A DNA stretch of 64,000 bases. Source: Tribonema minus (Eukaryota > Sar > Xanthophyceae > Tribonematales > Tribonemataceae). Where the stretch lies: the NCBI GenBank assembly GCA_017506865.1, contig JAFCMP010000045.1, positions 349,554-413,553 of the forward strand, read 5' to 3'. The notes beneath the pieces were generated by a model. It did no database searches, was not told the origin of the DNA, and worked only from the letters and a program-made list of their open reading frames with translations. This document shows positions 3,266 through 51,200 of this stretch, piece by piece (within the stretch, counting starts at the first letter, position 1; each line of letters opens with the position of its first letter). The position numbers and the translations under genes are program-made.

Positions 3266-3304
<39 letters not shown>

Positions 3305-6300
3305 AGCGGCAGCAGTAGCGAGCTTGCAGAGGTGGAGATGGAAGTCAACCTGCTGCGCGCCATGCAGCACCCCCACGTCGTGCAGTACCTGGGCGTCGAC
3401 TTCGACGCTGCCAGGTAAGGCATGTGAATGTAGCGAGATTGGCGGAGGCTCTGCTCATGAAGGCGGTTGGGTTGGGGTTGGGGTGAGGCAATGTTAATTA
3501 GCTGACAGCGCATATGCGCGCCATCACCGTGCAACATGTCGCAGCCAGGTATGTATGGAAGTAGGTGGCGCTGCGAGATTTGGCCGAGCTCTGCTCATAG
3601 AGGCGGTCAGTGTAAGGTTTGGGGTGAGGCCGTGTTGTCCATGGGGGGGGAACGAGGCTGGCATGCACACTGTCACTCTCGAGGTGTTCGTCGCTTCAAG
3701 GGTTAGGGTTAGGGTTAGGGTTAGAATTAGGATTAGGGTTGGGGTTAGGGCTAGAGTTAGGGTTGGGTGTGGGGTTTAAGTTGTCGGCGAGGGTGCCGTC
3801 CCGTGGATAAGGGTTAGGGTTAGGGTTAGGATTAGGGTTAGGGTTAGTCTGCTGGGTCATACGGCTCGCCAGCAGCAGCGGCAGCAGTCGTTCTGCGTCG
3901 CTGCCGGATCCGCCGCGCTGTCATACGACTGCAGGCGGCGGCGCAGGCGCCTTTGCTGTTGTGTACGTTGGTGTTTGCCCTGATTTGATTTTAGATAGTT
4001 TGCAAATATCCATAGAATATACCTCAGATTTTCATCAAGTATACTCTGAGAGGCGCTGCGGCGCGTCGTCGCGGCGTAGTGCTGTCGGTGTCGCCGCGCC
4101 GCGTTTGCGCTGAGCGTTGCTGCGACAGCGACAGCGCCTGCGCGGTGCGATGCGAGCAGCAGCACCGAGCTACTCCGCTTGTGTTCGGGCGTTGGAAATG
4201 GCCTGCGAAGTTGTGGTTGTTTCTTTGATGTGCCAGTACTCCTTGCCGCAAGCACAGCCCCAACCGTGGCCCTAGACAGAATACTTCTCAAGACTTCGGT
4301 GCCGCTTCTTGACGTCTGTACTGCCAGACCCAGTTCGCAGACGACCGGAATCATTCAAGCAGAGTCTCAGCATTTGCAGGCAAAGTCTTATGCTTTAGTA
4401 GCTGACAGCGCATACGTAGCGTCACCACCATGCCAGACGTGGACACCTAGGTGGCCAGACAGACACGACTCATGAACGCACGTGTTGCCAACAACTGCGA
4501 GTTGGGAACACAATGCAAACCCTGTCTGAGGTGGCACGACCCAACCTCAACATGTGCTGAGCGCTGCTTTGTCACTGGCCAAGCCATGGACTGCTGCAGC
4601 GCGTCTCACCTTTAACTATCACCGCGCTACAGTTATGAACGGCGTTGCATGCACCGCAGCCGTCATTTTTGCCGCCCGGTTCTCAACTCAGTCAACTGCC
4701 CCTCCCCCCCCCCCCTGCCCCCCCTGCCCCCACTTCCCCCCCCCGCTACGCCGTGCCTCTGCTGCCACCGCACAGGAATATGCTGTATATATTCTGCGAG
4801 TGGGTTCCAGGCGGTTCACTCAGGGATTTGCTCAACGACTTTGGGCCCGTGCGCGAGAACGTCGCGAGGGACTACGCACGACAGGTGACAGTTGCAAACG
4901 TCAACTTGAAGTTCTTTCACAGCCTCTGACTGATTTGTGAACAGGAGCAACGTCACTTTGCGCCACAAGCAGTGTATACAAGAGTGTTCCCGGCAACAAC
5001 AGCAAGGAAATAAGTGTGGGTCCGAGCGAGAGCTCGACGTGTGCCAGCGGCACGATTGCATTGCCGAAGGAAGGTACAATTCAATGTACGGTGTGCAGTG
5101 CATTATGCCGGTGCAGTCGTCACTGGATGATTGGGAACGGTATCGCTTGCGTTGACAGCCTCGTCCACTGGCTGGTGAAGTACCTATTGCATGATGTAAC
5201 ATCATGCAATATTGAAGAATACCCAACATCATTGATGTTGGGTATTCTTCAAGTCGAATGACACAGGCCCCGCGCACTGTCTCCCGCGCATGGTGCTGCT
5301 GGTCCTGAAGCACCTGCACGACGACCACATTGTACATCATGAGACGTGCACTTTGGCTTTCTCTCCTTATTTCCAGTGTGCTGAATGCTGCTAGGCCTGA
5401 AGTGCCTGTGCCGCGACCTCAATCGTGTGCCGCAACATCAAGTCTGTGACTTCTTTCATACACCTCAACGGCGTGACTCTCCCGCGTGCAGATGCTGCTG
5501 GGCCTGGAGTACCTGCACGATAACCACATTATACACCGCGATATCAAGAGCGCGAACGGTAAGAGCCTCGTCTGTACACCGAGACGTAAACGCGCCGCGC
5601 ACGTTTCTCCAAATGGTGCCGCGGTGTACAGCCACAGGCGTCCATGAAGTCTTCCCAGTCACCGTCTTCATGGCGTACGCGCTATATTCAGTATGGCGCG
5701 GCGTAACCTGCCACTGATCTTCACATGTAGGGCACACATTGCACGAGCTCAACCTGCAGTGCACACATTGCATAAGTTCAACCTGAATCGTATTCACCGT
5801 ACTCCCGCGCTTCATTGAACGGTTCTGTCGTGTCTCCAACTGAAAGCTCGACTACGCACGCCACAAGACTGTGGCCCTTGCTGGCGACCGGAATAGCTAG
5901 CTCGTCGAAGTCAAACGGCACACCGAAATCAGTGCTGCCTGTACGGCTCTGAGGGCCGGAGCGTATGCCGAGAGCCGCGCGCGCTGTCCTTCTGTTCTTC
6001 AAAACGTGGCACTTCGACACACGGGCCTAGCAAGGGCAGACTTGCTACAGTGCCGACTGGCTGACCCAGTCTGGTCTTGCCGTTACCGCCATAGCTTAAC
6101 TCTCGTGTGTGGTCAAGCAGAGTGTGACTGGCTACCACACGCTCGCCTTCCCCACTTGTCTGTGCCCCTTGCTGGTGACTGGTTTTCGGCCCCAATTCTG
6201 TACTGAAATCGCTGAAAACTCTGATATCATGATGGCGTCTGACCGTTGCTCATCGGCATGGTCATACAAGCGTGGTCGGCCGAAATCTGAGGCTGACTGC

Positions 6301-9300
6301 CTGGGCTTCGCGTCGGCCATTAGACAGCATTTGAATATGCAAGGCCTGAGCGGCACTGTGCTGAGATGTCGTGCTTGAGTAGTCCCGTTGCCCAGCGCAT
6401 GAGCAACCCACCGTTGCCTGGCAGTGTCAAGAGCCAGCGTAATGGTGCAGCAGCTGTGACCACTGTTATGGGCATGCGGCAATGGTTCAGGGACACAATG
6501 ACTGCCAAGCACTCCCGAGCAGTAGCCCCAAGCTGTGCGTCTCGTGCGGAATGATTTCTTTGAAATCATTATTTGATATTTTCTTGCAAAGTGAGCCTCA
6601 GCTACTCTCTTCACCTCCTCCCCGTTCAACAGTCCTCCTGCATGAAAATGGGTGCATCAAGCTCACCGACTTTGGCGCCAGCAAGATGATGTACGAGGAA
6701 GACCACGCGGAGCACACGCTGAAAGGGTATGTATGTGTGTATGTAACATGGGGTATGTACGTATCATAACGTTGGGTATGTATACCTCTCACGGGGTACT
6801 TCGTATCTCACTGACTTCGGGTATGTATACCTCACATGGGGCATGTACGTATCATGGCATTGGGTATGTATACCTAACACGGGGTATGTACCCATTATGA
6901 TTTTGGGTATGTGTACTTCACGCCAGTTTGGCAAAAGCAACGTGTGCAAGGCGGGCCGCGCAGTGCATGTGTATTGCATAATGCCACAGGATGGGCGTGT
7001 ATCCTTATTTTGAGCCCATCCTGAGTTTGTACCCTCGGCTGCCTAGGTCAGCTGTGGTCCTTGTGTCCTTCGACAGTAATGGCAGCAAGTTGACATGCGA
7101 TTGAGGGGGTGGGGAGAAGGGGGGAATGTGGCAGCTGCACTGAAGGGCCACTTGGTTTTCTGCACGATGTGCGCCTCGTACGCCTAACCCTAACCCAAAA
7201 CCTAACCCTAGGAGGGCGTAGAAAAAGCAGTCTACTCTGGAACATCGTGCTTGCGTTCATCAGTGCTGGTGCCCGTGAGATGATGCACGGCTGTGCTGAG
7301 CAAAGTGTTGAAGCAGCCACTCCTGTGTGTGCGCCTTGCATCTGAATCTGCCTGGTCGAACGCTGCACGCAGGGTGCCTGCGTACAGTACACCCGCATGT
7401 GCACCCACACCGACAGAGCACTGCTGCGCGAGTGCACCTCTGTACCAATGTAAACTCCCTGTGTACACAGAGCACTGCTGCTCCAGTGCACCTCTGTACC
7501 GATGTAACCCCCCCCTGTCCTCTGCTGTACAGCGCGCAGCACTTGAAACGCGGGATAAACGGAGCGACTGAGCGAGTAGGCGCTACCACACTCTGCATGC
7601 ACTGATTGCTGATGTGAACCTCCTGTTGCTCTCTGTGCACCTGCGCGAGTGCGCCTTTGTACCAATGTATAAAACCCCCGTGTACACAGAGCACTGCTGC
7701 TCGAGTGCACATCTGTACCGATGTGAACTCGTCTGTACTGCGCGCAGGACTTGTAAACAAGACGTTGACTTTGTTGTACAAAAGGCAGCCAGGTCGTCAA
7801 GCTCGTACACCGCCTTGCTGTAGTCATGAACTTCCCCTGTGCTGTAGTAATGAACTCCCCCTGTTTTCTGCTGTACCCTGCACAGAACCCCCTTCTACAT
7901 GGCACCCGAGGTCGTGGCCACGGGCAAGTACGGCAGGAAAGCGGATATATGGAGGTACGCGTCACATCACATGTTTTAACGCTGCTTGATTGAAGTCTGC
8001 ATGGAAGAATTTAGTCCTGCCCCCTTCAAAAATTGCACTAAAGTTTGAAGCAGGCTGCACTCCGCACTCCGCCTATCCCGCAACGCAGCGCTTTGGCTAT
8101 TTAGCTCAGATACATCGCATTTGCTTGCCAGGCCACAGCAGCATCTGCGCTGAGGACTGGCGCTGCTCGTTGCCTCACGACGATGGGATTGCGCTTTCCC
8201 GAGCACCGCCACTGCCCACACGTACATACATACCGCACGGGTGGCGGCGTGGAGCGCTGCTGCTGCACGGTTGACTGACCGCAGCCGCCCGCCTGCATAT
8301 ACGCCGTGATGCGCATTTTGTGACACAACAGCAGCGACCGCCAACTGGACAGCCTCGTACTTCAAGTATGACTCACGCACGGCGCCGCGACCCCCTGCCG
8401 TGGCCGTGTTCTTACAGTTACGGCGGAACGGTCCAAACTTCAAGTGTGACTTATGCACTCTGCCGGAAAGCCTCATATTTCAAGTGTGACTCACGCACCG
8501 CCCCACGACCCCCTGCCGTGGCCGTGTGCTTGACAGTTACGGGGGAACGGTGCTTGAGATTTTGTCGGGCCAGTCGCCATGGGCGTGCATGGGCGTCAAG
8601 GGCTCCAGTCAGGTACGCACCGGACAGCGCACAAACTTCAATCTACTTGCCTAACAAGGAACTTCAAATATGGACTCACCTGACCCAGGCCCCAACTTTT
8701 GTGCACGTTGCACAGGGACGAGCCTTAGCAGCTAAATCTCCTTTCGGCCTTCCATACTATCAGGTTCTATTATCAAACGTTCTGATCACAGCTTTGGTGG
8801 CTTGCTCCCGTTTTCGTTAGCCTGGCGTGCCGTCGTGACAGTGATCAGCAGCCGCACTGTGATGACGCTCAGCAAAGGTACCAATCCTTCTTCCTGCCGC
8901 CCACTTCCGCGTCCACACAAACCGCTCCGCAGAGATCTTCAAGCTGCTGATACACATAGAGCAGCTGGCTGAGCCAAACAGCGACTGAGCTCGAGACGAA
9001 TCTCGATCTCGCTATATGTTTATAAATGCGTGTACTTCAAGTTCATAAAGACGCCTTGTCCACACGTCCTTCTGTCCGTCCGCCCGTCCGCACGGCAGAT
9101 CTTCAAACTGCTGATACACACGGAGCAGCTGCCACCGCTGCCGCAGCACGCGAGCGACCTCGCGCAGGCCTTCCTGTCGTCCTGCCTGGTGAGCGCTGCT
9201 GCTGGCCGTCCTCAGTGTGACTTGAAATTGAAGTGGAGCAAGCAGTGGTCTGCCAGCGCTTCGTCTCGTCCCGTCTCAGGCGCCACGCGATCAATACCGG

Positions 9301-13899: not shown

Positions 13900-16800
13900 T
13901 CACGGCGGTGCAGTGCTCGGCGGCCGTGCGAGAGGCGGCAGCGACAGTCCATTGTAGCGCGCAGCAGCAGGTGATGTTGCGACGCCATAACTCGCACCTT
14001 GGTCGGCGCTGTTCCCGCCAGCGGCCGGGGAACCCTCGGAAACGGCGGCTGCTGCTGGCCGACTGTGGTCAGTGGGTGGACAGTCGCAGCTGCCGCCGCC
14101 GCTGCCAGCATGTCCGCTACCACCGTGGCGACTGCCGTTGAGATGGGAGCTTCCCTCAGAGCGTGCGGTGGTGGCTATCCAGCACGCGGCAGTGTCCACG
14201 TCACCAGTTGCCACAGACTGGGGTTCGATTTTTCGAGTGCTGCCGCTGCCGCCCCTGCTGCTTCCGCTTTCGCCGCGGCCGCCGGTGCCGCCGCCACTGC
14301 CGCCGCTGCCGGTGCGCCCGGCTTGCTCAACAGCGTCAGAGCCTTTGCTCGAGCCACTGAAGGGCAGCCGCGGCTGCACCTGAATGACGTCGCCTGTGCC
14401 AGCGCGCCTTTGAGCAGCCGCAGGCATGAAATCTGAAGCCACGGCGACGCTGCCGCCATCAGGGCGCACGCCGCCGCGGCTGCCGCCGCTACCATCGGCA
14501 TGGCTCTTGCCGCCACCGCTGCTGCTGCCGCCGCCGCGGCCGCTGCCACCGCCGCGGCCGCTGCTGCCGATCTGCATGCCACTGTTGCTACCGCCGTTGC
14601 CGTTGCCGTCGCCTTCGCTGCTGCTGCCGATGCCACCGCCGCCGCTGCTGCCACAGGCTGCGGCACCACCGCTGGCGGCTCGGCGCGCGCCGCCGCTGCT
14701 GCGCCTGGCACCAGGGCCACCAGAAGCACCGGCAGGCGGGTCCGGCTGCTCCAGCACGAGACCGACTATGGCCGCCATTGACGCAGTGGCGGACTGGCAG
14801 GTGGCGGCAGCGGCGCGCGGCCGGGGATCCATGGCCGCGCCGCCGCCGTTGCCCTGCGCGGCATCGTGACGATGAGCCGCTGCGCCCGGCAGCGCGACGC
14901 GGCCGGCGCTGACGGCGCGGCCGCTGCTTGCGTGCACGCTGCTGCCGCTGTTTGCGTCGCCGCGGCTCCTGCTGTGCGCCGCCTGGAAGCGCGCCGCCGC
15001 GGGCCACGAGCCGATGTGGTAGCAGCCGCCGCCGTCGCCGCTGTCGCGCGCGCCGCCGCCGCCGACGCTGCTGCCGCCGCCGCCGCCGCCGCGCCTGATG
15101 CTGGTGTCGCTGTGGATGCGGTGGAGGTGGCGGCGGCCGGCGGGGCGCTGCGGGATGGCGGCGCGCTCGCCGATGCTGTGCGCGCCACGTGGGCTGCCGC
15201 CGCCGCTGGTGCCGTGGCTGCCGTCGCCTCTGACGCCGGTGCTGCTGGCGACGCCCCTGTGGAACGTCCCGCGCTTGACGTTGTTGCTGAGGGTGTGCCA
15301 GTAGTTGCCGCCGCTGCTGGAGAACCTGCGCGGCGGCGCGGCGAGAGTGATCAGAGTGGCGGCGATGCATCAGCTTGGTGGAGGCGTGTGTGACCACCAC
15401 TGCATCCGGTGGCTAAGACTGTGAGGTGTGGGAAGCCGCAATGGTGTTGACCTGCTGTGATCTAACATGCCGTGTGTACGCAATGGATTGGCTATATGTA
15501 CATGTAAATAAGGAATCGGCTAGTGATGGACTACAAGTGTTTCAGGAACGTATGTGTCTGAATGACCTGCTGAAGTACATGATACATTTGGGGAGTCGCA
15601 GGATGGACATCGTGCTGCCTGCCGACGCCTTCCCGGTGACCGGCTACGACGACCCGACACGCCACCTACCGCTCATGGTGGACGTCACCTGCTTCGAGGC
15701 ACAGGTGGCGTCGCGGGCGGCGAAGACTGCAGCAGACCCCGAGCACTGCTGCCGCGACCAAGAGGCCGCCAAATTATCCCACTATTCTGGTCATTATGAC
15801 CAGAATTGCTACAAACTTGCCACTTTGGCAATCGGGTCATTCGGCAGCATCGGGGAGCAGGGGCGGAAGCTGCTGGAGGCTGTGGCGACGGAGTATGCCA
15901 GCAGGATGTCAGTGCCCGGAGGAGCGCGCCCTAAAGCTCTCAAGGGCATCGCCCTGGCGCGCTTACGCTCGGCACTGTCGGCAGCGCTCCACATGGCGTA
16001 CTCTGGCCGTGTCATGACACACATGGCAGAATTCAGGGGGGGGGGGCACATGGAGGAGGACGTAGGGGAGGATCCCGAGATGCCATTTGGCGGCGGCGGC
16101 GTTTGAGTGGTTGTTGAGACACTTTCAGAAGTCACACGACATGCAGATTCCGTACAGCAGCATCAAGTTAGACCATCATCTGGGCTTTTTCGCGCCCTGA
16201 GCGAGAATTAATAAAAAGTACATGATACGCTATGCATCGGAGTGAATACACATACGCAAGGCGTGCTTGAATTTTAGGGCTAGCGGGGTCAGGGGCGGGT
16301 GGTGGTCAGGAGTGAATTCAACAAGTTGTTGGCACAGCCACTGCTGGTCTACCCTGCTCAACAGCCGCAGGTAGCTTCGCAAAAAGGTGTTGCTGAGCTG
16401 TTGTCCATCAAAGCTAGGGTTTGCGCGACCGTCCAGATCTAGAGCAGGGTCTGAACGTGAGTCATTCACAGCAGTTCCGCACGGCCCTGCAATCAGATTG
16501 GGTTGTGGACCGTGTTTGCCATTCTGATGCATAGCCTGGCAATCAGGTAGCATTTCGGGCAGTGCAATGTCATCGTGTCACACGGCCAACAACTATGCCA
16601 TGGTCATGTCTCTGGTGACAGTGCGGCTCTGCAGTGCAGCGGGTTGACACAAGGCTAACATTGCGCATGCGTCAGTGCGGGGGGGAGCGCCATCAGAAGT
16701 CTGCACCCATATGGTAGGTATCGGTGAACGCACGTATGTACCCTTGTGACGCGGCGGAACGGCCGCCCCACGAGCTGCTGTCGTGCAGCATCGCGTACAG

Positions 16801-19800
16801 GTTGGTGTCTAGCAGCTGCGCGTACGCATACGGTAGGTATGAGCGGACGCACGTACGTACCCTTGTACCCATACGGTAGGTATCGGTGAACGCGCGTACG
16901 TACCCTTGTGACGCGGCGGAACGGCCGCCCCGCGAGCTGCTGTCGTGCAGCATCGCAAACAGGTTGGTGTCCTGCAGCTGCGCGTACGCGCTGCGCAGGT
17001 CCTGGCACACGGCGCGCTCCGCCGCGAGCGCCGCAAGGAGCACTGACGCGCACAGGCCCAGTTGAACTTCGGGCGTCACCTGCGCGCGGCAACGGTTTGC
17101 AAGCATGCACCGTAGTGCGCTTGAGGGGAGAATTGAGGTGACCAGAGCTGCTGCGTATCGGCGGGCCCCGTCCGCCAGCGCCACCGAGCCCATGAGCGGC
17201 ATCCACGCGAGCTGCGGGCGCGGTGACGCCGTGCACGTGTACAGGTAATCGGAGTGTGAGCAGTCTAGCACAGTTGTCTCGAGGACAGACGCAGCTGTGC
17301 GGCGGTGCCTTCGTGTGCGCCGGAGGTCAGAGTGTGAGGCACCTGCGCGCGTGGCGGCGCCGTTCGCGTGTACGCGGGCCCGAAGTGTGAGAATTCTAGT
17401 GCAGTTTGTTGGCCGTTTAGGGGAACAGGGAGTCGGAGTGAGCAAACAGCAGAGATTCCTGTTTGCACAGGTCTCTGTGCGATATGTAGTGCCTTTGCCG
17501 CGGCGTGATGGGTTGCAGCTGGGGCGTCACCTGCGCGCACGCGCAGGAGCACGACAACTTCAAGTGTTGCAGCTGTTGGCTCGTGGTGGTACGGTTCAAG
17601 CCACAGCATGAGCTCTTGCTGTATGCAGAGGTTCTGACAAGGAACGAGCCCATGGGTGCACAGGTGCGCCGTTGGAGGAGGGGCAGGGTGGGGGGGGGGG
17701 GGGGCGTCAAGCGGGCTTGGCAGCTTGGAAGCCCTTTCAAAGTTTGTCGGGTGCATGTGGGGTATATTATATGCCGAACTGCAAAGGTGGTGTCGCGATG
17801 GAACCGTCTACCTCTGCATGAATGCTCCAGGGATGGTACACATATGCTACACTGCAAGGCAGCGGTATCCAGATAGCACGGGGGCAAGCGCGCAACATTT
17901 GCGATTCCATTACACAATGTGTGCAGAAGAAGATGAGGGGGAGTGGACCACTTCCACGGGTGATCCTGGCGGCTACAGGACGTTAGGGTGAGGGTCAAAC
18001 GGAATAGCGTTGTTGGTCCACCCAAACTTGACATGCAACACCCCTCCCCTGCTTGCCCGCCCTTGGTGTTATCACAACCGCGCGTAGCGCCAGCCCTGCA
18101 AAAGTGTGCGCCCGGATGTTGGCGATACAAGTGCTGTGCACGTGTCTTGCTACGCATATCAGAGTTTTCGGCAATTTTGGATAAAATTGAGGCCAAAAAC
18201 CAGGAACCAGCAAGGGGCAGAGAAAGAGGGGGAGGCGATCGCGTGGTAGCCATTCACATTCTGCTAGACCACAAGGCCAAACTCTTGTGGACACGGCAAC
18301 ACCAGCCAGGTAGCCAGCACTGTCGCCTGTCTGCTCTGTGCACTCATGGACTTGCATCTATCAGGGCCCCAAGGAGGCCGGGTTTCCCATGTGCATCTAC
18401 GTTTGGGTGCAGGCGCCGCCGTGCCTGGACGCACGAAAGCAGAGGACGCGGTGCGCCTGGAATCTGCTGTGTACTTTACTGGTAAGGCCCTTTCATTGTA
18501 TGAGATGCATCTTATTTACTTCCGCGTGAGGGGCAGAAACGCTTTGATAAATTGCAAAATATAATTTTGAAAATATGCAGCTGGTGTGCTCGTGTCAAGC
18601 GTGTGCTCACATGCGTTTGTGACCGCAATGAAACACATGCGCCATCTACACAATCAAATGTACAACTATTGTTAACTGGGTAATTTGTCGGGTTGGGGAA
18701 TTTTACTCAGGTGAGGGTTAGAGGTAGGGTCAGGTTTACGGTCAGGGAGACAGGGTTGAGTTTGGACGTCAACAACTGACAGTTCGCACTGGATCACCTG
18801 AAAGCTGCTGGCGGTGGTGCCGCGCGCTTCCGCCGGCGCGTGCACGTAGCCGGCCGCAAGCACCCCCGTGTAGTGCATAGCGCACACCGCGACGGCGATG
18901 ACGACGGCGCAGGCCTGCGGGGGCAGCGCTCAACAACACAGGAAATGGGGGCAGCGCTCAACAATACAAAAAATATCATCTCACACATCATCATGCCGCG
19001 ATGGTGAGGATGCCAGCAGATGGTGAGGACGCCAGCAGCGGCGCCGGGCTCTTGCGTCAGCAGTGCATGGAAGGCATGCAAAACGAGTAATCATCGCGTG
19101 ACGGAGTGCGTGTGTCCGTCAGTCCTCGGCGTAAAGGAGATCCAGCGGTTAGTGGGGCGCTGCCTGACCAGCAGGGTATTGACGCAACAAGTGCGTGTCC
19201 CCCCCTGCCCTGCCTCGAGCAACTGAAGCTTGCGTGTGTCCTGCCTGGACTGTAACAGGGACACGTGGGGTGCTTGACAGTGCAAGGAGGCAAAGCCATT
19301 TGCGTGGGCACTCAATTGAGCTGCTGGTTCTGCCTTGTAGCACAATGTGTTCAAAGCCGAGAACAAACATGAACTGTCGAGGTGTAGTGCTGCGTATCAG
19401 AGAAAGGGATCAGCCACACCCGGCCTACTATACATTTGATGAAGACACATATTGACTGCGCGTGCTGATCTTTGAGCACTGCGCATATGCGTGCTCAGAG
19501 GACACTTCCATGTCTGGCAGGTGCGCTTTGACCCATTTGAGGTCGTGGTGCAGACTGGTCTGCAGCTGTGCACCATGAGCATGTACTAGAAGCACAACAC
19601 GTAGAGATAGACGTTCATCGCGCCTCTGCAACCGGGGCATGGAGCCAGAAGCAAGTTGGTGGCTCTGGGCAGACGCCTGCCGACCATGCGCACATTGTGG
19701 GCACTACGTATCACAATGTTACCTACCCTGCAAGTACATGTACATCAGCGCGAGTGCATCAGCGCTCGCCGGCTTGAGCCACGCCACGCCTGCCCTTCAG

Positions 19801-22800
19801 ATCCCGACCACAAAAAATGAGCTACCCTGATGAACCCCTACACGATGATACCTGCCCTGAGGATACCTACCCCGCAAGTGCGTCAGCGCTCACCGGCTTG
19901 AGCCACGTCACGCCGGCCTTCCAGAGCAGCAGGCGGAACAGGATCCAGAAGCCGGCCAGCGAGACCACCAGCGCGATGACGCAGGAGGCCGCGACCCAGT
20001 GCCAGTTCCAGACGATGCGGAACTCGCCGCTCATGGCGAGCATACCCTAGGTATCAGGTGCAAGGGGGCAGGCGGCGCACAGAGCCACAAAGCGTAAGCC
20101 ACTGGCAGCCTACGTGCGCTTTTCGTTGGATTTTCAGTGCGCAACGGACAACTTCATCATCAGCGAGAACTTCATCGTCTTTTCAAACTTGAACGTGAAG
20201 ACGCCAGTCTCACCGTCTCACTGGATTGCGCGTCGCATGCGCGTAGACCTGTCCGGTCAGTGCCATACGCAGTGCGGAGCGCGACGGTGGGGGCTACCGC
20301 CCTCCTCTGGTAGAGGCAGTGTAACATGATGACTGCATTCTAGTGCGCGTGTTGCGTACCATCTTGATCCTTGCCCTCGCTGGCGACCGCATTGCGCCCC
20401 CACCAGCAGCAGCGCTCACAACAGAGCGCTCTCATCATGGAGTGCACAAACGCACCGCGCGCGGCTTGCGCTTGGCGACCGTGGGTGCGGCGGACCACGT
20501 CCTGCGAGCTGCTACAAATTAATACTCTAAACAATCACATATGGAAAGCAGGTGTAGAATGGGTGCTCTTTGCAAGCCCAGGGAAGTGTTGGCAGCGTGC
20601 CCGAATCGCACTTCGCGCTGGCAAGCAGCCATTGGGTGTTTGGCCAACTGCAGTAGAGGTGATAGCTGGCAGGCAGTCTGGAAAAACCGTTGCAGCATAC
20701 AGATATGTAAGTAGTGCACGTCGTGCGCTGCCTCAGCAGCAGCGCTCACCATGCAGTGCGTGCAACCTACACTCAGCACAGTGCCCCCGGGCACAGCGCG
20801 CGAGCGCGGTGCTGCAGGTCAGGAGTTGCAGGTCCCCGCCTGTTTCATCACTGAGTGAGTAAGCGAGTCAAGACCGAGTCAAGCCTGTCCCTGTACGAAG
20901 GGCACGCCCAGCGCACAGCAAGCACATCATAAATTGAGTGAAAAACGGTGCGGTGGGCTGCGCACACCAAGCAGCATTACCCAGGCCCAATGTGTGCACC
21001 CCTGCAAACCCCGGAGGGGTCGCAATGGATCATGCCATGATGATTGAAAAGTGTACTCAGTCGCAATGCTGATCATGCCGAGATGATTGAACAATGTAAT
21101 TCTGGTGACGAATACATTGAATGTGCATAGGTGTGAGCAGTCTGGTACTGCAGGCTCCAATGCAGCCCTGATTGATATTGCCATGCAGACACAAAGAGCA
21201 ACATATCGTGCCCTGAGCAGCGGCGCTCATTGTGCAGAACATGCAACGCCCAGCGCGCGGCGCTGCAGGCCACTTGAAGTCTGTCAACCTCAACTGTAGT
21301 GAAAGGAGCCCCGCAATGCGCTCATTGCGTGCGGCATAATCACAACACCGCTCACGCTCATCATTGTGCCTCCGACCACCTGCATTATTATAGTCTACCA
21401 TCCTCGAATCATGTGAAGACAACAAGTTGAAGTCTGCCACCCCTCACCATGCAAGACCGACCACTTCAAGTCTGGCCAGCAGAAGCTCTGCCACACTCAA
21501 CTCACGTGACGCTCGTCTCATAGTGCGCTCGCCAGGTGGCTCATGATCATCGCACCGCCCACTCAACTTCAACTCTACAAGCTCAACTCATCTGAAACTC
21601 CCCGACCTCAATTAATCAGAAACTCACCAAATAGTGCATGCAGATGACGCCCAGCGCCGTCAGCGTCGCGCCGCACACCAGGTGCTGCAGCCCGCCCAGG
21701 TACGCCGCGTGCAGGATGCGCAGCTTCTGGCCCGTGGACCGCAGGCTCCGCAGCGCCGTCTTGTTGAGCTGCTGCTGCTTCGAGAGCACCTGCGGGGCGC
21801 GCAGCGGCGAGCAGCAGGCGGGACGCTGAGCACTGCTTCAGAAACAGTGCTTCTGGCCTTACTGCCGCTGCTGCTCTATGACCTGCTGCTGCTGCGACTG
21901 ATGCTGCTGTTGCTGCTGCCGCTGCCGGTGCTGCTGGTGCTGCTGGTGCAGCTGGTGCTGCTGGTGCTGCTGGTGGTGGTGCTGGTGGTGCCAGTGGTGG
22001 TGATACTGCTGCTGGGGCCGCTGCTGCCGTTGCTGCTGCGGCCTGAAGTGTAGCTGGATGTGCAGAGTCGGGGCGCATGCAGTGTAGAGACGACGTTCCA
22101 CTAGACAAGTTCAAGTTTTTTTACTTCAGCTTTTTGCGCTGAGGTGTGGGAACGGCAAACACTGCTCATTCCGCGCCGCCATGCACCACGCATTTGCCAA
22201 ACTTGCTGCAAACCTCACTGCACCTAATGCGCTCGACGGCACCACCGATGTGAATTGCGGCAGCAGTGCTGCGTAGTGCCGCGCCACCCGTGATTTGCAT
22301 GCACCGGTGCTGCATGCACAGAACGCTCACGGTGGCGCGTAACGCTGCATACGTGCGCGTCTGTCCGCTGAAATGGAAACAGTCATGCGCGACACGCGCA
22401 TGCACATGCCCCCAGCGCACGATGGTTGAGACATGCCTTGGACGCTGCATTCCGTGCGCATTATCCCTGTGGCTCATGACCCCGAGCACGGAGCGTCGAA
22501 CGCCAGACTTGAAGTCCGAGCCGCATGCGCAGATGCCTACCGCACATGCAGATTACCTCCATCAGCCCACCTCTAATAGCCTGATCAGCCACGTATATAC
22601 CTATGTACCACACACGTAGATACCTGCCCGCCTCGATCCGCCCGGTCAGTCTCATAGACCCGTACCACGCAAGTTCATGCCTACGCGCCCAGCCGTGAGC
22701 CGGGTCAGCCCCGTAGATGCCTACTGCATACCAGTAGCATAGCAGATGCCATCCTGCTCAGCTCTATCAGCCTCATACATACCTGCCGCATACTGATAGT

Positions 22801-24868
22801 AGTAGATACAATCCTGCCCATCTCTATTGGCGTCATGGACACCTGCGCATACCAGTAGCATGCAGATACCAATGTATGTAGATACCAATGTGCCGCCAAC
22901 CTCTATCAGCCTGGGTTAGTACTTCAAAACAGTAGATACCACTCTGTCCACCTCTATCAGCCTGGCCAGCCTGTCGCGCCCGGCGTACGCGTCACGCGCC
23001 GCGACCTCCAGCCCCGCGCGCAGCATCTAGATACCTACCGCATACAGTAGCCTGCAGATACCATCATACCCACCTCTATGAGCCTGACCAGCCTGTCACG
23101 CCCGGCGTACGCGTCGCGCGCCGCGACCTCCAGCCCCGCGCGCAGCATCAGCGCGCACGCCGCAAGCGACACGGCCGTCATCCACCACCCGTACACCATG
23201 CGCACGCGCGCGCCGCCGCCGCCACCACTGAGCGCTGCTGCTGCGCCGTCCGCCGCCGGCAGCTCCAGCGTCACCGCGCTCATGCCCAGGAAGTGCATGC
23301 ACCAGATGGCGCCGACCGCGAGCGAGAGCGCGCACCAGTCCAGCGGTCGCCTGAGCACTGGCACCGACTCGGTGGCCTGAGTCGGAGTCGGAGTCAGGTG
23401 GTGTTGCATCAGATGCGGCAGGGGCGCTATACGCAGGGAGGGGCTGCGGATGCACGCAACGTAGCGGTTCATGAAGCAAAGCGCTTGAGGGCTAAGGTTG
23501 GGGTTCAGGTTGGCTGAGCACTGTTGGCGGCAGGAGCCGTGAACACCTTTGTGGGGATTTACGTTGACCCAATTGAGAGCTGTGCATGTACATGGCGTGT
23601 CTTGAGCCTGCAGGCGATGGTGTGGTGTGCTGTGATACATTCACAGTACACACACTTCAGGTGACTGACGAACCGCAGTCTCGCGTTGGCAACCAAGACA
23701 GGACAGCGTCGTACAGGTACCGAGATGCGGTACTCGTGGTCTTGTGTTTATGATAGCACCAATGAAGGCCAGGAGCTTCGAGGGTGAGGGTTAGGGTTTG
23801 TAGATAACCACATCATTCAGGTGGTACCGTATGCTTCCGGGGCAGCTGTTTTTGCGCAAGGTTGCTTCTTCAAACTGAATGCCTGCCATTGCAGGTTGAC
23901 ATACTCGTCTGCCTTCGCGAGCGCCGCTCCTGTTCGGTCTTTACGGCCACAAGCTGCAGTTAACAGCTGCTAGGGCATTTGCTTTAGGCGGCTGCTTCAG
24001 GCTGTGCATTGCAGGGTGTGCAACCACACTTTTACAAGGGAGAGCTTGCTGGTGACAATGCAAAGCGCCTGCCCAGCCCAGGGGGAGCCGCTTGCGATGT
24101 GGTTGCCGAATGATGTGAGCACACTTCGACCACACCTGGGCAATGGAAATGTGCCGCAGTACCATTGCGCTTGGCAAGATTGGGGCAGCTGTCATTATGC
24201 GGCCACTGTGCGCTTTGTGCAGCGCTGCCTGTAACAGCGCGCTTGGGTGCCGAGAAACACTAGGGTTAGGCCATGGATAAGGGTCAGGGTTGGACTTGAA
24301 GATCACCTTGGTGTTGTCCCGCCACCTGTGGTGATCCAGCACAGAGACGCCGCTGTAAGCCCTGCAGGAAGCACGGGCAGTAAAAGCCAAGCAGAAGCCA
24401 TTGGCGTTCAAGCCGACCCTAGGAAAGTGGTGAGCGACAGCTCGTGCGCCATTGAAGACATGCCAGCTACGTGTAGTAGCAGTACACTGCATCATCAAAA
24501 ACTGAAAGTGAATGCGCCGGCTGCCAAGCTGCCACACTCATGCCACCACAGCTGTCTGATGCTTCTGTGCACTGAATGCAAAGTTGCTACATCATACACA
24601 TCTCTGGAGTCGCTGTGTCATTTGCCGACGTGCTCTGCAGGTGCTTTTCCTGCTTATTGCTGTTTGTGTCATGCACAAAAGCTAGTCATGCTGCTGCTGA
24701 CTGACAGGTACATGTGTCGGTATTTTGCGGGCTGTACTGATGCATGTTCCGCTGGTTGGGTAGTGTCCGCTTGCCGTCGACGTACGCTCACCCGCAGCAG
24801 CTCACGACGAAGCTGACAAACACTGTGAACAGATTCCAGTGCTCCAGCAGCAGCACGTCTCCTCCCAT
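13900..24868 (-). CDS. MHYT-domain multi-pass membrane protein
   Basis: Eight exons on the minus strand: 24868-24792, 24361-24307, 23376-23074, 21789-21628, 20046-19894, 18914-18798, 17211-16904 and 15325-13900. They total 2601 nt (866 aa plus TGA), with every junction in phase. The N-terminal half has about seven hydrophobic segments and three MHYT-type motifs: WCMHFLGM (exon 3), ICMHYLGML (made by joining exons 4 and 5) and CAMHYTGVL (exon 6). In bacteria and fungi the MHYT domain is a membrane sensor proposed to bind metal and sense diatomic gases. The C-terminal 475 residues, all in exon 8, are Ser/Gly-rich and look disordered, with no catalytic domain that I recognise. The start ATG at 24868 lies just before TM1. 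A truncated LINE sits antisense in intron 7. Exon 7 has an in-frame duplicated end that allows a longer isoform. The last exon might splice before the TGA. Confidence 0.87.
15573..15585. repeat. Target-site duplication, 5' side of truncated RLE LINE
   Basis: AAGTACATGATAC, repeated at 16216-16228. The first nine bases match the end of the element tail, so part of it may be element-derived. Confidence 0.8.
15586..16215 (+). mobile_element. 5'-truncated copy of the RLE LINE
   Basis: From 15590 the sequence matches the last ~520 bp of the LINE ORF (RLE core MDIVLPADAF to the GGGGV stop at 16106) and its 3' UTR with one tail unit. It is flanked by 13-bp repeats AAGTACATGATAC at 15573-15585 and 16216-16228, with four filler bases (15586-15589) at the 5' junction. 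The coding remnant is still open and nearly identical to 57368-57884, so the insertion is recent. It lies antisense in the last intron of the MHYT gene. Confidence 0.9.
16216..16228. repeat. Target-site duplication, 3' side of truncated RLE LINE
   Basis: AAGTACATGATAC, identical to 15573-15585. Confidence 0.8.
16694..16826 (-). repeat. Donor-side echo of MHYT exon 17211-16904, in frame
   Basis: A copy of 16861-16990, displaced by 162 bp. It repeats the exon end (DTNLYAMLHDSSSWGG for DTNLFAMLHDSSSRGG) and its donor (16742 versus 16904). The stretch between the copies stays open, so use of the second donor adds exactly 54 codons in the same phase. Confidence 0.85.
18158..18320 (-). repeat. Dispersed repeat, copy b (intron of MHYT gene)
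   Basis: Its plus strand reads CAGAGTTTTCGGCAATTTTG, then CAAAAACCAGGAACCAGCA, then a G-rich stretch; copy c repeats these landmarks. Its homology to copy a (inverted) continues to about 18340. The minus-strand frame gives SWFLASILSKIAENSDM. Confidence 0.68.
18345..18400 (-). mobile_element. Possible solo 3' end of the OTU LINE
   Basis: About 55 bp (ATGGACTTGCATCTATCAG, then AAGGAGGCCGGGTT) resemble the last bases of OTU LINE copy 1 at 27850-27900 (ATGGACTTGTATTTATAAAG, then AGGGAGGCCGGGTT). No flanking duplication was found. It directly follows repeat copy b. Confidence 0.45.
19732..19800 (-). repeat. Donor-side echo of MHYT exon 20046-19894
   Basis: Repeats 19866-19940 (GCATCAGCGCTCGCCGGCTT for GCGTCAGCGCTCACCGGCTT). 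In sense, the donor GT has become GC in the echo. Confidence 0.8.
21866..22035. repeat. CTG/CAG-rich repeat in MHYT intron
   Basis: Imperfect CTG and GCTGGTG repeats upstream (in sense) of MHYT exon 21789-21628. They produce long poly-Ala or poly-Leu frames that are not genes. Confidence 0.75.
22556..23026 (-). repeat. Donor-side echo and derived minisatellite after MHYT exon 23376-23074
   Basis: 22932-23026 is a 122-bp-shifted copy of 23053-23148, which includes the exon end RLIE and its donor. Shorter degenerate units (CCTCTATCAGCCT, GTAGATACC) recur at about 22556, 22760, 22820 and 22900, so the junction seems to have been amplified repeatedly. Confidence 0.8.
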
Positions 24869-37610: not shown

Positions 37611-37624
37611 TTTTCGGTATGTAC
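37611..37624. repeat. Target-site duplication, 5' side of OTU LINE copy 1
   Basis: A perfect 14-bp match to 27834-27847; the bases on either side differ. It places the telomere-like tract at 37583-37610 inside the inserted unit. Confidence 0.93.
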
Positions 37625-40700: not shown

Positions 40701-42196
40701 TGGTGCCCCCCTGTGACAGGATTTTTGTGTCGGTGTGCACACATCACGTGTTAATACTGCTCAGCGGCCGTGGTGCTTCTGCAGCAGCGCTCAGGTAGCG
40801 CGGACAACGCAGCAGCATTGCCAGGTGCGAGCCTACGTCTTTCGCACCTCAAACCACCAGTTGACGCAGCCACATATTGCTGAGTGCTACATGAAAAACG
40901 AATCAAAAGATCGTTGAGCTCTAGGTGACAAGGGATGGTTAGCCGCGAGTGCCTTCCACCAATAACCGTGGTCAAGACTGCTGCAGTCATTGGCCACGAG
41001 TCAAACAGTGCCACCTATATAGCATATGCACCCACTCATGTTGTGCCCCCCCCCTAGCCGCCCTTGTACAGCGCCTAGATGGCGCCGACAGCTATGAGCT
41101 TGATGCCGATGACTGACGCAGGTCATTACGAGTGATATAACACCTATCCCTTTGGTCACACATACTCATAATTTCCCCCTCAAGCTCTGCTCCCCTAGCT
41201 TGATGCCGATGACTGACGCAGGGCATTACTTGTGATGCAAACAATACCTAGCTACCCCTTAGTCGCACGTAATGATACGTACCCCCTCATGCTGTGCTCC
41301 CCTTGGTCATCCTCGTACAGCACCTTGCTGGCGCCAAAGTCTGTGAGCTTGATGCGCCCGTTCTTGTGCATGAGTACATTTGCACATTTTACATCGCGGT
41401 GAACAATGTGGTTGTCGTGCAGGTACTTGAGGCCCAGCAGCACCTGGCACAACGGCAGGGGCGGCGGCACGCATGTAATGTGTCAAGTACTACAAGTCGA
41501 TGGCGCGGTGCGCAATGTGGTCATCATGCTCCATGGTATTTGCATAGCACCGTGACTGCGACAGGTACGAGCTTGCATGTGCGCTGCGGACACATGCATT
41601 GGATGGGCATCAGACCTGCATATCTTGCATGTGTCATAAGGTTTCCGCCCTTTGCGCAGAAGCAAAAAAAGTACGACAGCCGTGGCACTTTCTATCAATT
41701 CTCGCTTAGGGCGCGAAAAAGCCCAGATGGTGGATGTCCATGAACTTGCAACCAGAATCTACATGTGTCTTTGTGAACACCTTGAAAGTGTCTCAATGCG
41801 CATTGCCGATCGCTTCTAAACGACACCGCCACGTGGCATTTGTGCTTCCGGTGCAAGGCCGAACAGACAGTGAACGTGATGCGCGTGCCGCTGTGCCACC
41901 AGGCTTCGCACGTGCGGCGGGCACTCCCAGCAACACTGACTGTCAATCTCACAGTTGCGCACAAAACGCAGGGCCGATCGCAGCTGCAGACGGCAGAGAT
42001 CCGCTCAGTATCTGCGCGAGGTCAGTCGCACGCGCGCGAGACATTGAAGTTGAAGTTGGGAGCGTCACCTGCCGCGCGTAGTCGCTCGCTATGGTCTCCG
42101 ACAGCGGCCCGAAGTCATCGAGCAAGTCTCTCAAGGACCCACCAGGGACCCATTCGCAGAATATGTACAGGGCGTCGCTGGCAAGGAGGGGGGTGG

Positions 42197-42233
<37 letters not shown>

Positions 42234-45200: not shown

Positions 45201-48200
45201 GTGGCCACGCAAAGGGCTACACAAGGTTTGACACTGCACCCACTGCACCCGCGCACTTGCGGCAGCCGGTGGGCAGCTAGCACACGTCACCCTAGCCTAC
45301 CTAACTAGGGCTTGGGGCGGTCACTCGTGTAGCTGGGCGGTGCAGGCGAACAGCAGAGCAGCAGGAGTTGGCCGAGTCTCGCAGCTCCAAGTTGGGGGGT
45401 GACAACAGCTAAACTCAGGGCGGTCAGAGCAGAGAGGGCGAAATGTTGATGCACACGTGGCTCAGGGCTATGACCTTGCAGCGACATGTAGGCAGGTAGG
45501 GCTCGAAGGCCCCGGCCCTCCAAATCTGCGTCTTCGAAGGCCAGGGCTAGGTCAGGTCAGCACCCCCATCAACAGTACGTCATCAGCGCTCCGCCTTCAT
45601 ATGTCAGTGTACATACCTGATGCACGCGCTGCAGTGCGCGAGAGTCCAGCTCCTCACGGTCCGCCGCGCCGCACGCATGCTGCGCCAGCGCCGCGTGCTG
45701 CGTGAGCGTGTCCGCCGCTGCCGCCGCGCTCGTGCTTGCCGAGCCGTGCTGCGGCACCGCGCTGCGCAGTTTTTTGCGGGCAGGCATGGGGGGGCGGCAA
45801 TCAAGCCTTGTCAAGTATGGATGCGTTTGTGGCCGTTGAAGTGCTTGCGCGCTCGCCGAGCCGTGCTGCGGCACCGCGCTGCACAGTTTTTGCGGGCGCG
45901 CAGGGGCGACAGGGGGGGGGGGGGGGGATGTCAGGGGGGTATTGATCAAGCTTCATGGAGTATGAATGTATTTGCGGCCATCGACGAGCTTGCGCTCTTG
46001 CTGGGCAGGGCTGCGGCCCCGTGCTTCGGCGTTGGCGCCGCGCGGGGGGCAAGTCGGGGGGCAGATGCAGATCACCACTGCGTCATGTGCGCCAGGAAGC
46101 TGCGTATCAGCGTCCGCCACCACGTGACGGCTGCCGTCCGCCATTATCAACGACACCTGTTCCTCCGCGCGTAGCTCGCATACAATGCATTCCCAAAAAC
46201 GACAACAATTGGGCTGGGATCTGTTGAGTTTTGAGAAAGCGTACCGGCTGCTGCGTGGCGATGCGGTCGGAGACGCGTCGCGCGAGCCGCTCCGCGGCGC
46301 CCCCGCGGCCCACCCCTGCCAGAGCGAACACAACACGCAGTCACAATGAGCATAGGAGTGAGAGACGCTCGCCGAATTGATTCAGTTGGCTCGCCGAATT
46401 GATTCAGTTGAGCATGAGTGCCGCCGCTGCAGCTGACGACCGTGGCATGTCAGTGCTATCATATTGCAGCGGGTGTGGCAGAAAGCTCTGGGAGGGCTTT
46501 CTGGATTCAGAAACTTCTGCGGCAGGTTTTTGGGAAGTTTTTGGGAGCTAACGCAGCTGGGAGAAAGCACGGTAACCCAAGGGGGGGCGTGCAGGCAGGT
46601 GTATGTGCTCGCTCACGTGCGCACGTGCACATGTATATGCAGGTCAGGTGCTCTTGAATGTGCATCCATACGGGCTGCGGCACCAGGCTGGGTGTTCAGC
46701 AGATCAACATGCAGCCAATATGTGTGCACAGCTATACCTCAACTGCAATGCGGCCAGTCCAGCAGCGGGCAGTATGCATGGCAGACTATTCTGTGTAGTG
46801 GCCACTGTGACCATCTCCTGCATGTTTTAACAGTTTAATCCTCTTAAAAGATGAAGCCTACGACTCTTTGCGACGCATCCCTGCTCATCATGCAGGATTT
46901 CTGCCGGAGGAGCTCACATCTTTCCCTCACGGACATATACATATATGGTCAAGCCCCCTGTACCTCATGCATCTCACCGTGCGCCAACCGCTGTGCTTGT
47001 GTGCGCTGCTCAGCATGTTGAAGCTGGGGTGTGTGACTCGCCCCTGACGACAGCGGGGGCTGGCCGGCGCTGCTCGACGTGTTGAAGTCATGGTGTGCCC
47101 CCCCCCCCCCCCCCCCCCTTGGTGGCGCCCTGTGTCATCCCGCACACTCCTGATTGTTGTTGACATTTCAAAATTGAAGTTGAGGCGTGTGACTCACCTG
47201 CGCGGCGTCCTGCTCATCCTGCAGGATCTGGCGCAGGCTCACGGACGGCGTGCGGCGCCTGCTGTGCTCGCTGGTGGCACCGCTCAGCATGCTGTCGTTG
47301 GAGCGCTGACGCAGCAGCGTGACGGTGCCGGCGTCACGCGCCGCGATCTTCAAGTTGACCTCTTCCTGAGCCTCCGCCTCGTCTTCCGCGAAACGGTACA
47401 GGAAGTTGCCGTTCTTGAAGTTGTGGCGCCTCTGCGCACGGGGGGGGGGGGGGGGGGGATGTGAACTGTGGAGCCTGCTGTAGCTGGCGTTGGTGCAAGG
47501 GGGGGGGGGGAGGGGGGGGCAGTTAGGCGTTTCTGAGCTGTCAGCTCTGTTGAAATGAAATGCTTGATTGGAGTTGCTGTTTCTGGAACTCTGGACAAAT
47601 GAGGGGGGAGGGTTAGACAAGGCAGACTTGCCCTGTCGCAACCGCTGAAACTGGTGTGCCAGAAGCACATGTTCATGAGGCAGCTCGTGTGTATGTGTAC
47701 TTGTCGATCATTCAAGATTGATGCCAACAACAGCTCCTTGGTCTCAATTGCACGGGCAATCTCCTACTTGAGACACTGATCTGGCAGCAGCACGATAAGC
47801 AGCTCCTGGTGCGCAATACCTTGATGCTCAGGTTTGCGCTTGAGGTTTGACTTCACAGCAACAGCTTGCTCATGGGGTGGCAATGGTTTCTGAAAAGTGG
47901 TTGATTATTATCATTAAATAGATGTAAGGAAACGCAGCAGCTACCTGAGGGCATTGCAGAAAAAAGAGTAGAGACAACCCATATACACATGCATGCTGCC
48001 AGCACTGCACATGCCAGCACTGCACAGCCCACATATCATGCCTAGCTCCAGGCTGCAGAGGCCACGCTGGGCATTGCACTTCTAGTTCCAGCAGTTGTGA
48101 GTTTTGATGTTGCACTCACAGTACGGCGCACTTGCAATAGCTGCTGATCGTCACGCTTGAAATGGCACTTCTACTGCTTTACCTGTCACCTTTGCGTGGT

Positions 48201-51200
48201 GCAAGCAGCCCTCTTTCAGCTGCAGCAGGCCACGTGTGAGCATGCACTTCAACTACCAGCAGCCCTTCCAAATAGGCTATTTGAAGTTTCACTTTTGCCA
48301 TAGTTCCCTTGTTGTTGCAACAACAACAACAGTTGAAGTCAAAATTCAACTACCAGCTCTTGCACCTCAACATGGTTTAAGAAGCCCTGGTTGAGCATCG
48401 CATTGCCCAATCGAAACGCCTCTTCTTTCACTTTTACCATAGGTTGTTGTTGCAGGTAAAGTCAAAAGTTCAACTACCAGCTCTCGCACCTCAACATGAT
48501 GGAAGCAGCCCTCGTCGAGCATCGCGTTGCCCAGTCGCACTGCCTCTTCCTTTTCCCTTTTCACTTTTGCCATAAGTTTTCATTGTTGCAGTGAAGGCAA
48601 AGTGCAACTATCAGCTCTCGCACCTCAACATGGTGGAAGTAAGCATCGCGTTGCCCAGTCGAAATGCCTTTTCTATTTCACTTCTACCATAGTTTTGTTG
48701 TTGCAGTTGAAGTCAAAGTGCAACTATCAGCTCTCGCACCTCAACATGGTGGAAGAAGCCCTCGGTGAGCATCGCGTTGCCGAGTCGCACTGCCTCTTCC
48801 TCATCGAATGCGTGCTTGCTGGCCACGATCCACTTCACAGCGTCTGACCCCATGAAGCACTGCGGTAAGGCGTGAGGAGTGGGGAGATTGGCAGCAGCGG
48901 CGGGCAGAGAGAGTGACTCGGTGAGCAATGCCATCAGAGGCCCTTCGACAGTCATGGCGTGTATTGAGCTGCACCGGCTGCAGCACTTGATGACAGAAGC
49001 ACCGCTGGCGCGTTCAGGACTTCACGTGACGTGATGAGCAATGCCATCTGCACTGTCGAGCGGCGCTGCTTTGAATATCATGAGGTGAGTGAAATCGAGT
49101 TGCACCGGCTGCAGCACTTATGACACAAGCACCGCTGGGTTGTCAAGGAGTCCACCTGAAGTGCTTACGCAGGGCAGGGAATCGCCCAATTGATTGACGT
49201 CACGCTTGCTACAGGAGCAGCCAATGCCTTGTCACGAAACACCGGATCATGCAGCATGTTGCCGCTTTCTGAAGTACTGCACGTTCTCGGTGGTGAAACA
49301 TTTGGGGCACACATGTCCCTGAGCGTCTGCGCTGGGCGCACCGCAGCCGCCGATCACACGCTTCCGCGTGCCGGCAATGGCTGACTCTGACAGTCGGCAG
49401 GGCCCTGGCGCACTGCATTGTCAAATGGGGAACAGGCCTTAACGAGTGTGAAGTTTTTGTGAAGAGTCTGGGAGAGGCAGCAGCATGTGCAGCACTCCTT
49501 GCATGGCACTGATATGCAAGGGCATCCCTTGCATGGCGCCGACCAGCAAGGATAGGCACATGACTGCAGCAGAGTACTAGCTGGTACGCTAGCATTCCTC
49601 GTGTCGGGCAATGGCTGACTCTGACAGTCAGCAGGGCCCTGGTGCGCTGCATTGTCAAACATGCAGTCTTAACGACGACTTCGAAGTATAAGATACACTG
49701 CTGCATATCAGCAATGGCTGCAAGGTGGCCTGTCGCTGAGCGTTGCGCATGGCTGCCGGCATGTGCATGGCTGCCGGCATGTCACAGGCCAGCAATGCAC
49801 TTTCACTTGAGGTACAGGTACAACGAGCAGCTCCTCTCAAACAGCCACCACGGAAATAGCACGGTCCTCATTGGGAGCGTCGCTGCCGCAGCCCGACAGT
49901 ACACACTTGGAGTAGTAGTACTGTACTACGCAGTACCAGTGTCTCAGTCCCGCCCGCAACAGCGCTCAGCCCCTATGTCCCTCTGCTGTTTGCACGCAGC
50001 GCCCATCCCATGACGCTGCAATTTAGCACAACACATATACCGCACGCGCGCTCGCTCTCCCCTCACCTTGCTGCACTTGGCGAAGCGCAGCCGCCGGTCG
50101 CAGATGCTGATCTGCCCGCGCATCACGCGCGCGACGTCACGGAGGCGGTCCGAAGACGGCGCGGCAGCGCTCACGACGCTGGCGTTGCCGCCCACGTGCT
50201 GCTCCTGGAGTTGAAGTTGAGGTTGAAGGTGGTGCGAGCGCGGGCGGGGGGTGAGGGGCAGACTCAAGCGCAATGGCGCAAGTGCAAATGAATAAATGCT
50301 CATGAGCAGTGCACGTTATGGCTTCGCACGTTGTGGCTTCCGATGACAATGGGGTTGGTGCGGGGCTCTGTGTGCTAATGGTGACGCGCCGCCAGCAGGA
50401 GGTGCATGGTATACTTCAACTGAAGTGAACTGCGTGGTGTGAGTGTGGCGTGCCAACTGTGCGCATGTTGTATGTGTACCGAGACGCGTGCATGTCACAT
50501 GTGTCGACAACATCTGGACGCACAACTGCATCAGCGCCGCTGAAGGGAAAGACCTCCCCACAGCAGTCACCTTATGCCGCGCAAGCAGCACTTGACCTTG
50601 ATTGTTGCTCTGATTGCATGACAACATGTTGCGCGATGCAGAAACCAGGCCCGTTGGCTGTTTCAAGTAGTATACAACTAGAATTATCAGTAGCACTGGT
50701 GGTAGCCACTGGCAGCCACTGTGACAGTGCATGCATACAAGACTGTCTCGGATGGCAGATGCGCCAGGAGTCATGCCACCAGTGCCCTGCTGATCAGCCA
50801 GGGAATCAAGAGCACGAGCGAGCCCGGCGCACTGCACCTCGGGAGTGCCGGGACGACTCGGAGGCGCAACGGTGTGGACGCTTAAGCTTAAGCATCATGA
50901 TGCATTGCAATTGCGGATTATGCTTAAGCACATACACCTTCGTGCAGCGATTTCAACTTGCAGTACCTCGTCGTCGCCGTCGCCGGGCGCGGCGCTGTCA
51001 CGCAGGGCGACGTCATCCGCGCCACTGCTTCTGCTGGGCGCACCACTGGCCTGCAGCATGGTAGCGTCGCTTGTGCCGGCCCCTTCCCCCCCAGCATGCC
51101 CATGGGGTGCACTGGTGTGATTCCCCCAGAAACTCTGAGGGTACACCCGACCGCCAATCTTCATGTTCAGCCTGTCGCCCCACTTGGGCTTCCTGAGCAC

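Follow-up and report, generated by a model that had tools for sequence, protein, structure and literature searches.

Partial copies of exon edges in the introns of Tribonema minus as probable scars of local tandem duplication

Introns of the xanthophyte alga Tribonema minus carry partial copies of the edges of their own exons, each joining a piece of exon to the adjoining splice site, and these copies (here called echoes) are probably the scars of frequent local tandem duplication, with break repair as the probable source, filtered by selection on exons. We analyzed a 64,000-nucleotide stretch of contig JAFCMP010000045.1 (positions 349,554 to 413,553), called the window throughout, in which 11 edges had been named as echoed; the genes carrying them are two paralogous kinases (K1 on the plus strand and K3 on the minus strand) and an MHYT gene (minus strand). 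All 11 edges were checked by self-comparison of the window, base-level alignment, and exon models. The original prediction had counted at least ten exons with edge copies; nine of the 11 edges proved to have junction-crossing duplications (three K1 acceptors, three MHYT donors, one K3 donor, and two edges further up the K3 region, at 48740 and 45748), and those at 6726 and 7886 failed. We propose that local tandem duplications, with offsets mostly of about 60 to 250 bp, would arise often inside genes, and that a duplication across an exon edge would place part of the exon within the intron, together with a spare splice site. With the echo lying beside the edge, inside the intron, the original site would still be used and the protein would stay unchanged; the exon copy would be constrained while the echo drifts, which would keep the history visible at exon edges. 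Fill-in synthesis at staggered breaks, with end joining as the repair, may be what produces the duplications, which would be one route of intron growth.

The echoes in the window could be followed edge by edge, and the exon coordinates given earlier were accurate against the exon models apart from the disputed edges. Among the K1 acceptors (all plus strand), exon X4 (5492..5558), which has a paralogous exon in K3, is echoed at 5280..5336 by 44 exon nucleotides (nt) and 14 intron nt (83% identity, E 1.8e-9), exon X7 (8537..8612) at 8347..8432 by 15 exon nt and 72 intron nt (88.5% identity, E 9e-26), and exon X8 (9099..9188) at 8922..8967, where 35 nt align at 91% identity (E 7e-8) and the alignment could be extended. 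The MHYT donors lie on the minus strand. Exon E7 (16904..17079), conserved in five paralogs, has a donor echo at 16702..16827 with 86 exon nt and 40 intron nt (92.9% identity, E 4e-49), in which the splice site GGGTACGT has become GGGTACAT. Exons E5 (19894..20046) and E3 (23074..23376) belong to the MHYT domain and are supported by paralogs and domain matches; the E5 echo (19749..19801; 86.8% identity, E 3e-12) carries GC in place of GT, and the E3 echo (22934..23027; 90.4% identity, E 9e-32) comprises 76 exon nt and 18 intron nt. All three main echo donors of this gene are altered, one from GT to GC and two in the +5/+6 bases. K3 exon X4-5 (41283..41443, minus strand), part of the Pkinase domain and supported by a paralog and a domain match, has two donor echoes on the same strand: a nearer one at 41097..41196 (21 exon nt; donor 41175, GT lost; 77.6% identity, E 5e-18) and a farther one at 41024..41106 (73 exon nt; donor 41031; 74.7% identity, E 3e-9). 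For these seven modeled edges the best-echo BLAST E-values run from 7e-8 to 4e-49, and a paralogous exon supports seven of the nine confirmed edges.

The remaining two edges, also on the minus strand, lie further up the K3 region. At 48740..48829 (upstream limit provisional) a DEP-like coding stretch runs up to a donor. Its DEP match (E 4e-5, 23.9 bits) falls below the Pfam cutoff of 32.7, and three tandem echoes of its donor edge follow (48287..48673), seen in both self-comparison and alignment; all three keep GAG/GTGC intact, with first intron bases at 48623, 48489, and 48365. The other edge is the possible acceptor, at either 45748 or 45761, of a candidate exon seen as an open frame, and it carries a genuine duplication spanning 45731..46025 (45731-45880 against 45848-46025, offset 117, 68.5% identity). 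At 6726 there was no exon echo (exon-copy score 22, against a shuffled maximum of 27) and an intron minisatellite follows the donor, and at 7886 there was no junction-crossing echo, a 20-nt intron match (score 30, against a shuffled maximum of 26) stopping short of the exon. The spacing was larger than the 60 to 170 bp first reported: offsets in the window were about 100 to 250 bp, and the farthest of the three 48740 echoes lies at 374 bp.

A search of the genome for MHYT exons found them on the window's own contig, on contig C85, and at three places on contig C151, which allowed the same exon edges to be compared among five paralogs on three contigs. Exons were modeled from conservation rather than from RNA, by this search, translated comparison, splice-site reading, and pattern placement, and an echo was counted in the MHYT genes when the copy held at least 10 exon bases, the threshold for the kinases being somewhat looser. 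Echoes were present at 21 of 61 MHYT exon edges (15/33 donors and 6/28 acceptors) and, in K1 and K3 together, at 1/15 donors and 3/15 acceptors. The E5 donor is echoed in all five MHYT paralogs and the E3 donor in four of five, and some edges form arrays: in gene B the E5 donor edge occurs seven times, the real one included, in steps of 76 to 107 bp, and in gene C the E3 donor edge occurs six times, in steps of 95 to 164 bp. Every echo lies inside the adjoining intron, downstream of its own edge in 39 of 39 donor rows and upstream in 14 of 14 acceptor rows, and none has created a new intron position in the MHYT paralogs. The E3 echoes of genes W, A, C, and D are closest to the exon of their own gene and so arose separately in each; shared inheritance of all recurrent echoes is thereby ruled out for E3. 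The E5 echoes were likely inherited in part, as judged from sequence similarity, with four of six in gene B closer to the exon of A or C than to their own. Most copies have diverged by 3 to 30% and are therefore not assembly stutter. Duplications cover 0.058 of the introns of the window MHYT gene, 0.27 to 0.45 of those of the other four, and 0.10 to 0.11 of those of the kinases, and single genes contain two or more similar neighboring segments. The claim that the process lengthens introns is supported among the paralogs: the longer a paralogous intron, the more duplicated sequence it tends to contain (Spearman 0.41, p 0.03, 28 introns).

The pattern of divergence matched this history. In 38 donor-crossing pairs from 16 edges, identity fell from 0.888 at codon positions 1 and 2 to 0.833 at third positions and 0.75 in intron sequence, and echo divergence was 0.11 at coding sites versus 0.25 in introns, about 1:2. 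As expected, this fits a constrained exon with a drifting echo, and two drifting copies of the intron. The constraint on the exon copy means that duplications touching an exon stay recognizable longer than those confined to introns, and plain counts thus overstate the targeting of junctions. We simulated the five MHYT genes under uniform duplication (median 120 or 160 bp), keeping events that were wholly intronic or crossed one junction, and adding point changes, small indels, and balancing deletions before applying the same detection, with 120 runs for each of three final settings. Simulated intron coverage was 0.29 to 0.36, compared with 0.27 observed, and the outcome depends on the assumed decay and indel rates. 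Random placement, which had been named as the outcome that would argue against any preference for junctions, describes the acceptors, with echoes expected at 4.8 to 5.6 of 28 (about 5) and observed at six, and does not describe the MHYT donors. A process templated near junctions in general, as originally suggested, is therefore not upheld: the acceptors fit uniform placement, part of the junction excess is visibility, and K1 and K3 have no donor excess.

The junctions of young duplications bear on how the copies were made. Twelve exact two-copy duplications, with periods of 15 to 62 bp, were found in 320 kb; microhomology was 0 bp in eight of them and 1 to 3 bp in four. Slippage during replication, from one short direct repeat to another, would account for the regularity of several arrays (period about 100 to 164 bp), but with eight of the 12 lacking microhomology it is an improbable source; the same result speaks against the original suggestion of slippage. 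Fill-in of complementary overhangs followed by end joining makes small tandem duplications in human and mouse cells, and the duplicates of a CST-dependent route there mostly lack microhomology and arise from induced breaks with overhangs of about 43 to 50 bp (PMC8355091). The duplicates here resemble those described there in being tandem with little or no microhomology, as judged from the 12 short exact ones, which are not necessarily echoes; they differ in that most units are longer, and the pathway, which in that route depends on CST, Pol alpha-primase, and Ku, is putative here.

Several results weigh against local tandem duplication with simple decay. Echoes at 15 of 33 MHYT donors compare with null means of 5.0 to 5.8, and none of the 120 runs at any of the three settings reached this number; when E5 is taken as a single case, 11 of 29 donors compare with 4.4 to 4.9 (P 0, 0, and 0.008). 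The exact young duplications are short (15 to 62 bp), and their junctions may not represent those of the longer units. Three loci outside the modeled genes (c85:191541, c151:135794, and c151:98418) keep an exon tail at 91 to 96% identity with no detectable homology in the neighboring intron, and when echoes of one array are compared with each other, exon-derived sequence is often more conserved than intron sequence. In an exploratory null with 24 runs for each setting, a setting whose coverage was higher (0.374) gave a mean of 7.6 and a maximum of 15. Under the null assumptions the donor excess holds for the MHYT family, a set of five related genes, and it is not seen again in the kinases. Among the echoes are clean tandem units in which the intron parts are homologous, and others are exon tails of 91 to 96% identity with little intron homology; in 33 unit comparisons intron homology was clear in some (z up to 12.4) and little or absent in others, and a few of the 33 were aligned with the splice sites one or more bases apart. 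Exon tails without intron homology are unlike contiguous duplication followed by point decay, and later large indels must therefore be assumed; in several of 16 aligned pairs, flanking homology reappears shifted, as after large insertions or deletions, but the three loci named above show none, and simple duplication does not explain them. Under the tandem-duplication reading, the MHYT donor excess might reflect easier tolerance of an extra downstream donor or, perhaps, more breakage at intron starts.

An alternative is that copying is directed to donors, with breaks or template switches favoring intron starts (for example, through transcription-linked structures), so that exon tails and the adjoining 5' splice sites would enter the intron more often than other sequence does. 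The MHYT donors exceed the 5 to 6 expected while the acceptors sit at expectation, and certain blocks stop within 6 to 10 nt after the donor. However, the kinases show the opposite balance, donors (16/48) and acceptors (9/43) do not differ significantly over all seven genes (Fisher p 0.24; MHYT alone, p 0.06), and duplication coverage, 0.44 to 0.50 at the donor edge, is only 0.33 to 0.40 at 25 to 100 nt into the intron, barely above the intron mean of 0.27; the null used for comparison is also sensitive to the decay and indel rates chosen for it. We consider this alternative unlikely.

Local duplications were sampled on three of 554 contigs (156 kb of C151, 100 kb of C85, and the window), where aligned local pairs numbered 2.77, 1.68, and 0.72 per kb, respectively. 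Blocks of exon tail plus donor recur in unmodeled genes, and by eye many high-identity pairs whose copies stand apart from each other end at a donor-like site. A model-free count was made at 82 loci of 700 bp outside the modeled genes, requiring the motif in both copies. The donor motif GGTRNG lay at the 3' end of the duplicated block in 21 of the 82, compared with 10 that had it in mid-block and eight that had it at the 5' end (sign test p 0.011), which also favors donor-directed copying. Two of three permuted-motif controls showed no 3' lean, and the third, which overlaps the donor motif, did (16 versus 6, p 0.03). The trial acceptor motif YGCAGR leaned to the 3' end as well (14 versus 2 at the 5' end, p 0.004), as for exon tails ending in GCAG; a longer acceptor motif showed no lean at these loci (1 and 1), and the NCAG motif was dropped as unspecific (116, 97, and 103 of 374 counting windows at the 5' end, middle, and 3' end). 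The recurrence is thus not limited to the three genes, as had been proposed, and calling it genome-wide is an extrapolation from three contigs. A dispersed element, such as an introner that would put similar sequences into the introns of many unrelated genes, drew no support from a genome search with a single 601-bp stretch around E7; the stretch matched its own locus, the loci of MHYT paralogs, and, on one other contig, two places where the match was short and weak.

The decoy splice sites foreseen in the original prediction are physically present. Among 38 unique echo donors, GT is kept in 34, where neutral drift to a divergence of 0.112 would leave 30.0 (P 0.07), and identity over the nine-base donor site is 0.921, versus 0.888 at codon positions 1 and 2 (bootstrap by edge, P 0.017). 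The decoys are not purged, and mild retention is possible; selection against decoy sites, hinted at by the three altered donors of the window MHYT gene, was dropped as an explanation once the paralogs were added. Part of the conservation peak at the donor in echo-to-echo comparisons comes from the centering of the compared segments, and the peak is not taken as proof of selection. These same figures are what would be expected if selection kept spare donors, with random echoes retained when their 5' splice site stays intact and extra U1 sites defining or protecting long introns; however, the excess is small, the window MHYT gene has lost or altered all three, and use of an echo donor would add an in-frame stop in 32 of 36 MHYT cases. 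Such retention is rather improbable. A role for some echoes as genuine alternative exons, or as extensions under regulation, is more improbable still. A few echoes in unmodeled genes differ mostly at synonymous sites (by eye, both differences at c85:191541 and at c151:135794), but c151:98418 has two amino acid changes, also by eye, the MHYT differences show no third-position concentration beyond the neutral pattern, and the frame classes of the echo-donor extensions (9, 14, and 13) show no preference; translated echoes were rejected for the MHYT set. Taken together, it is possible, though not likely, that donor-directed copying of exon tails, or selection keeping spare donors, has built arrays of intact decoy donors in the introns of this lineage, and if it has, these arrays bear on splicing fidelity and intron length.

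The MHYT loci are window 16904-24862, C151 28080-33220, 37971-43980, and 51078-57556, and C85 231298-235610, so that this eukaryote has an MHYT-domain family of five genes or more, with a cluster of three on C151. Each paralog has at most seven exons, of conserved lengths (71, 55 to 57, 282 to 318, 144 to 162, 153, 111 to 117, and 167 to 191 nt), and the introns after E2 to E6 are common to all five; the 28 introns measure 160 to 1,834 bp (median, 713.5). In copy C, exons 1 and 2 are fused without intron 1 (C151 57434-57556), and in copy D, exon 1 is absent from the model and the end of exon 7 is arbitrary. Just past E7, the last modeled exon of the window MHYT gene, a frame at 15417-16106 (+) has a translation nearly identical to the 3' end of a long retroelement-like frame at 52524-57884 (+), and the gene may be truncated. 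The kinase models have eight and seven exons, and the intron between X4 and X5 in K1 (5559-6632) has no counterpart in K3 (41283-41443). Retroelement-like copies in opposite orientation occupy window 28867-36909 (-) and 59162-63383 (+), the second split into several frames, and an 18-bp GC-rich tandem array lies at matching positions within them (36407-36591 and 59220-59556). There were 54 DHC_N2 matches, marking dynein heavy-chain exons. GC content is 0.59, and AACCCT-type repeats are present, both of which would also suit a chlamydomonadalean alga; Haematococcus lacustris has telomeric repeats of AACCCT (PMC7617258). An 8-mer, AACTTCAA/TTGAAGTT, is overrepresented (22 occurrences in the window, 92 in C151, and 66 in C85, versus about 1, 5, and 1 expected) and lies in introns, not exons, of the seven modeled genes. 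Telomere-type repeats of CCCTAACCC, on either strand and degenerate, number 136 in C151, 40 in C85, and 29 in the window (fewer than 1 expected in each), again in introns and not exons of the modeled genes, and in the window at 1909-3847 and 37582-37611. Break repair can leave telomeric repeats behind, and the intronic repeats and the duplications would together fit frequent breakage and repair of introns.

Duplication of segments inside genes is common in eukaryotes, according to work cited in PMC4974935, and the echoes share this character; here, most modeled genes carry several, one edge occurs seven times, and the usual outcome is a longer rather than a new intron. In a potato RdRp gene, a boundary-crossing tandem duplication gave one new intron (PMC4974935), whereas the copies here stay in the old intron and include donor-side copies as well. 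Tandem duplication of coding segments bearing AG/GT has also led to intron gain (PMC4974935 and PMC2891723), and there too splice sites are supplied by tandem duplication; those duplications lie within exons and create introns, whereas echoes cross existing junctions. Boundary-crossing internal duplications are thus already known, and what is unusual is their density, the recurrence of the same edge across gene copies, and the largely intact donor arrays. No account of such donor arrays, or of the pattern in algae, was found in the literature searched, which mostly left out subscription papers. In Core-Reinhardtinia green algae, introns are long and lack the usual short-length peak, and PMC8226300 gives the advantage as unknown and the driving mechanism as probably ancient. 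The genome of T. minus may offer a readable record of intron lengthening, since the copy that remains in the exon is kept from drifting, and its naturally occurring arrays, with as many as seven donors for a single exon, provide a test of how the spliceosome chooses the correct donor.

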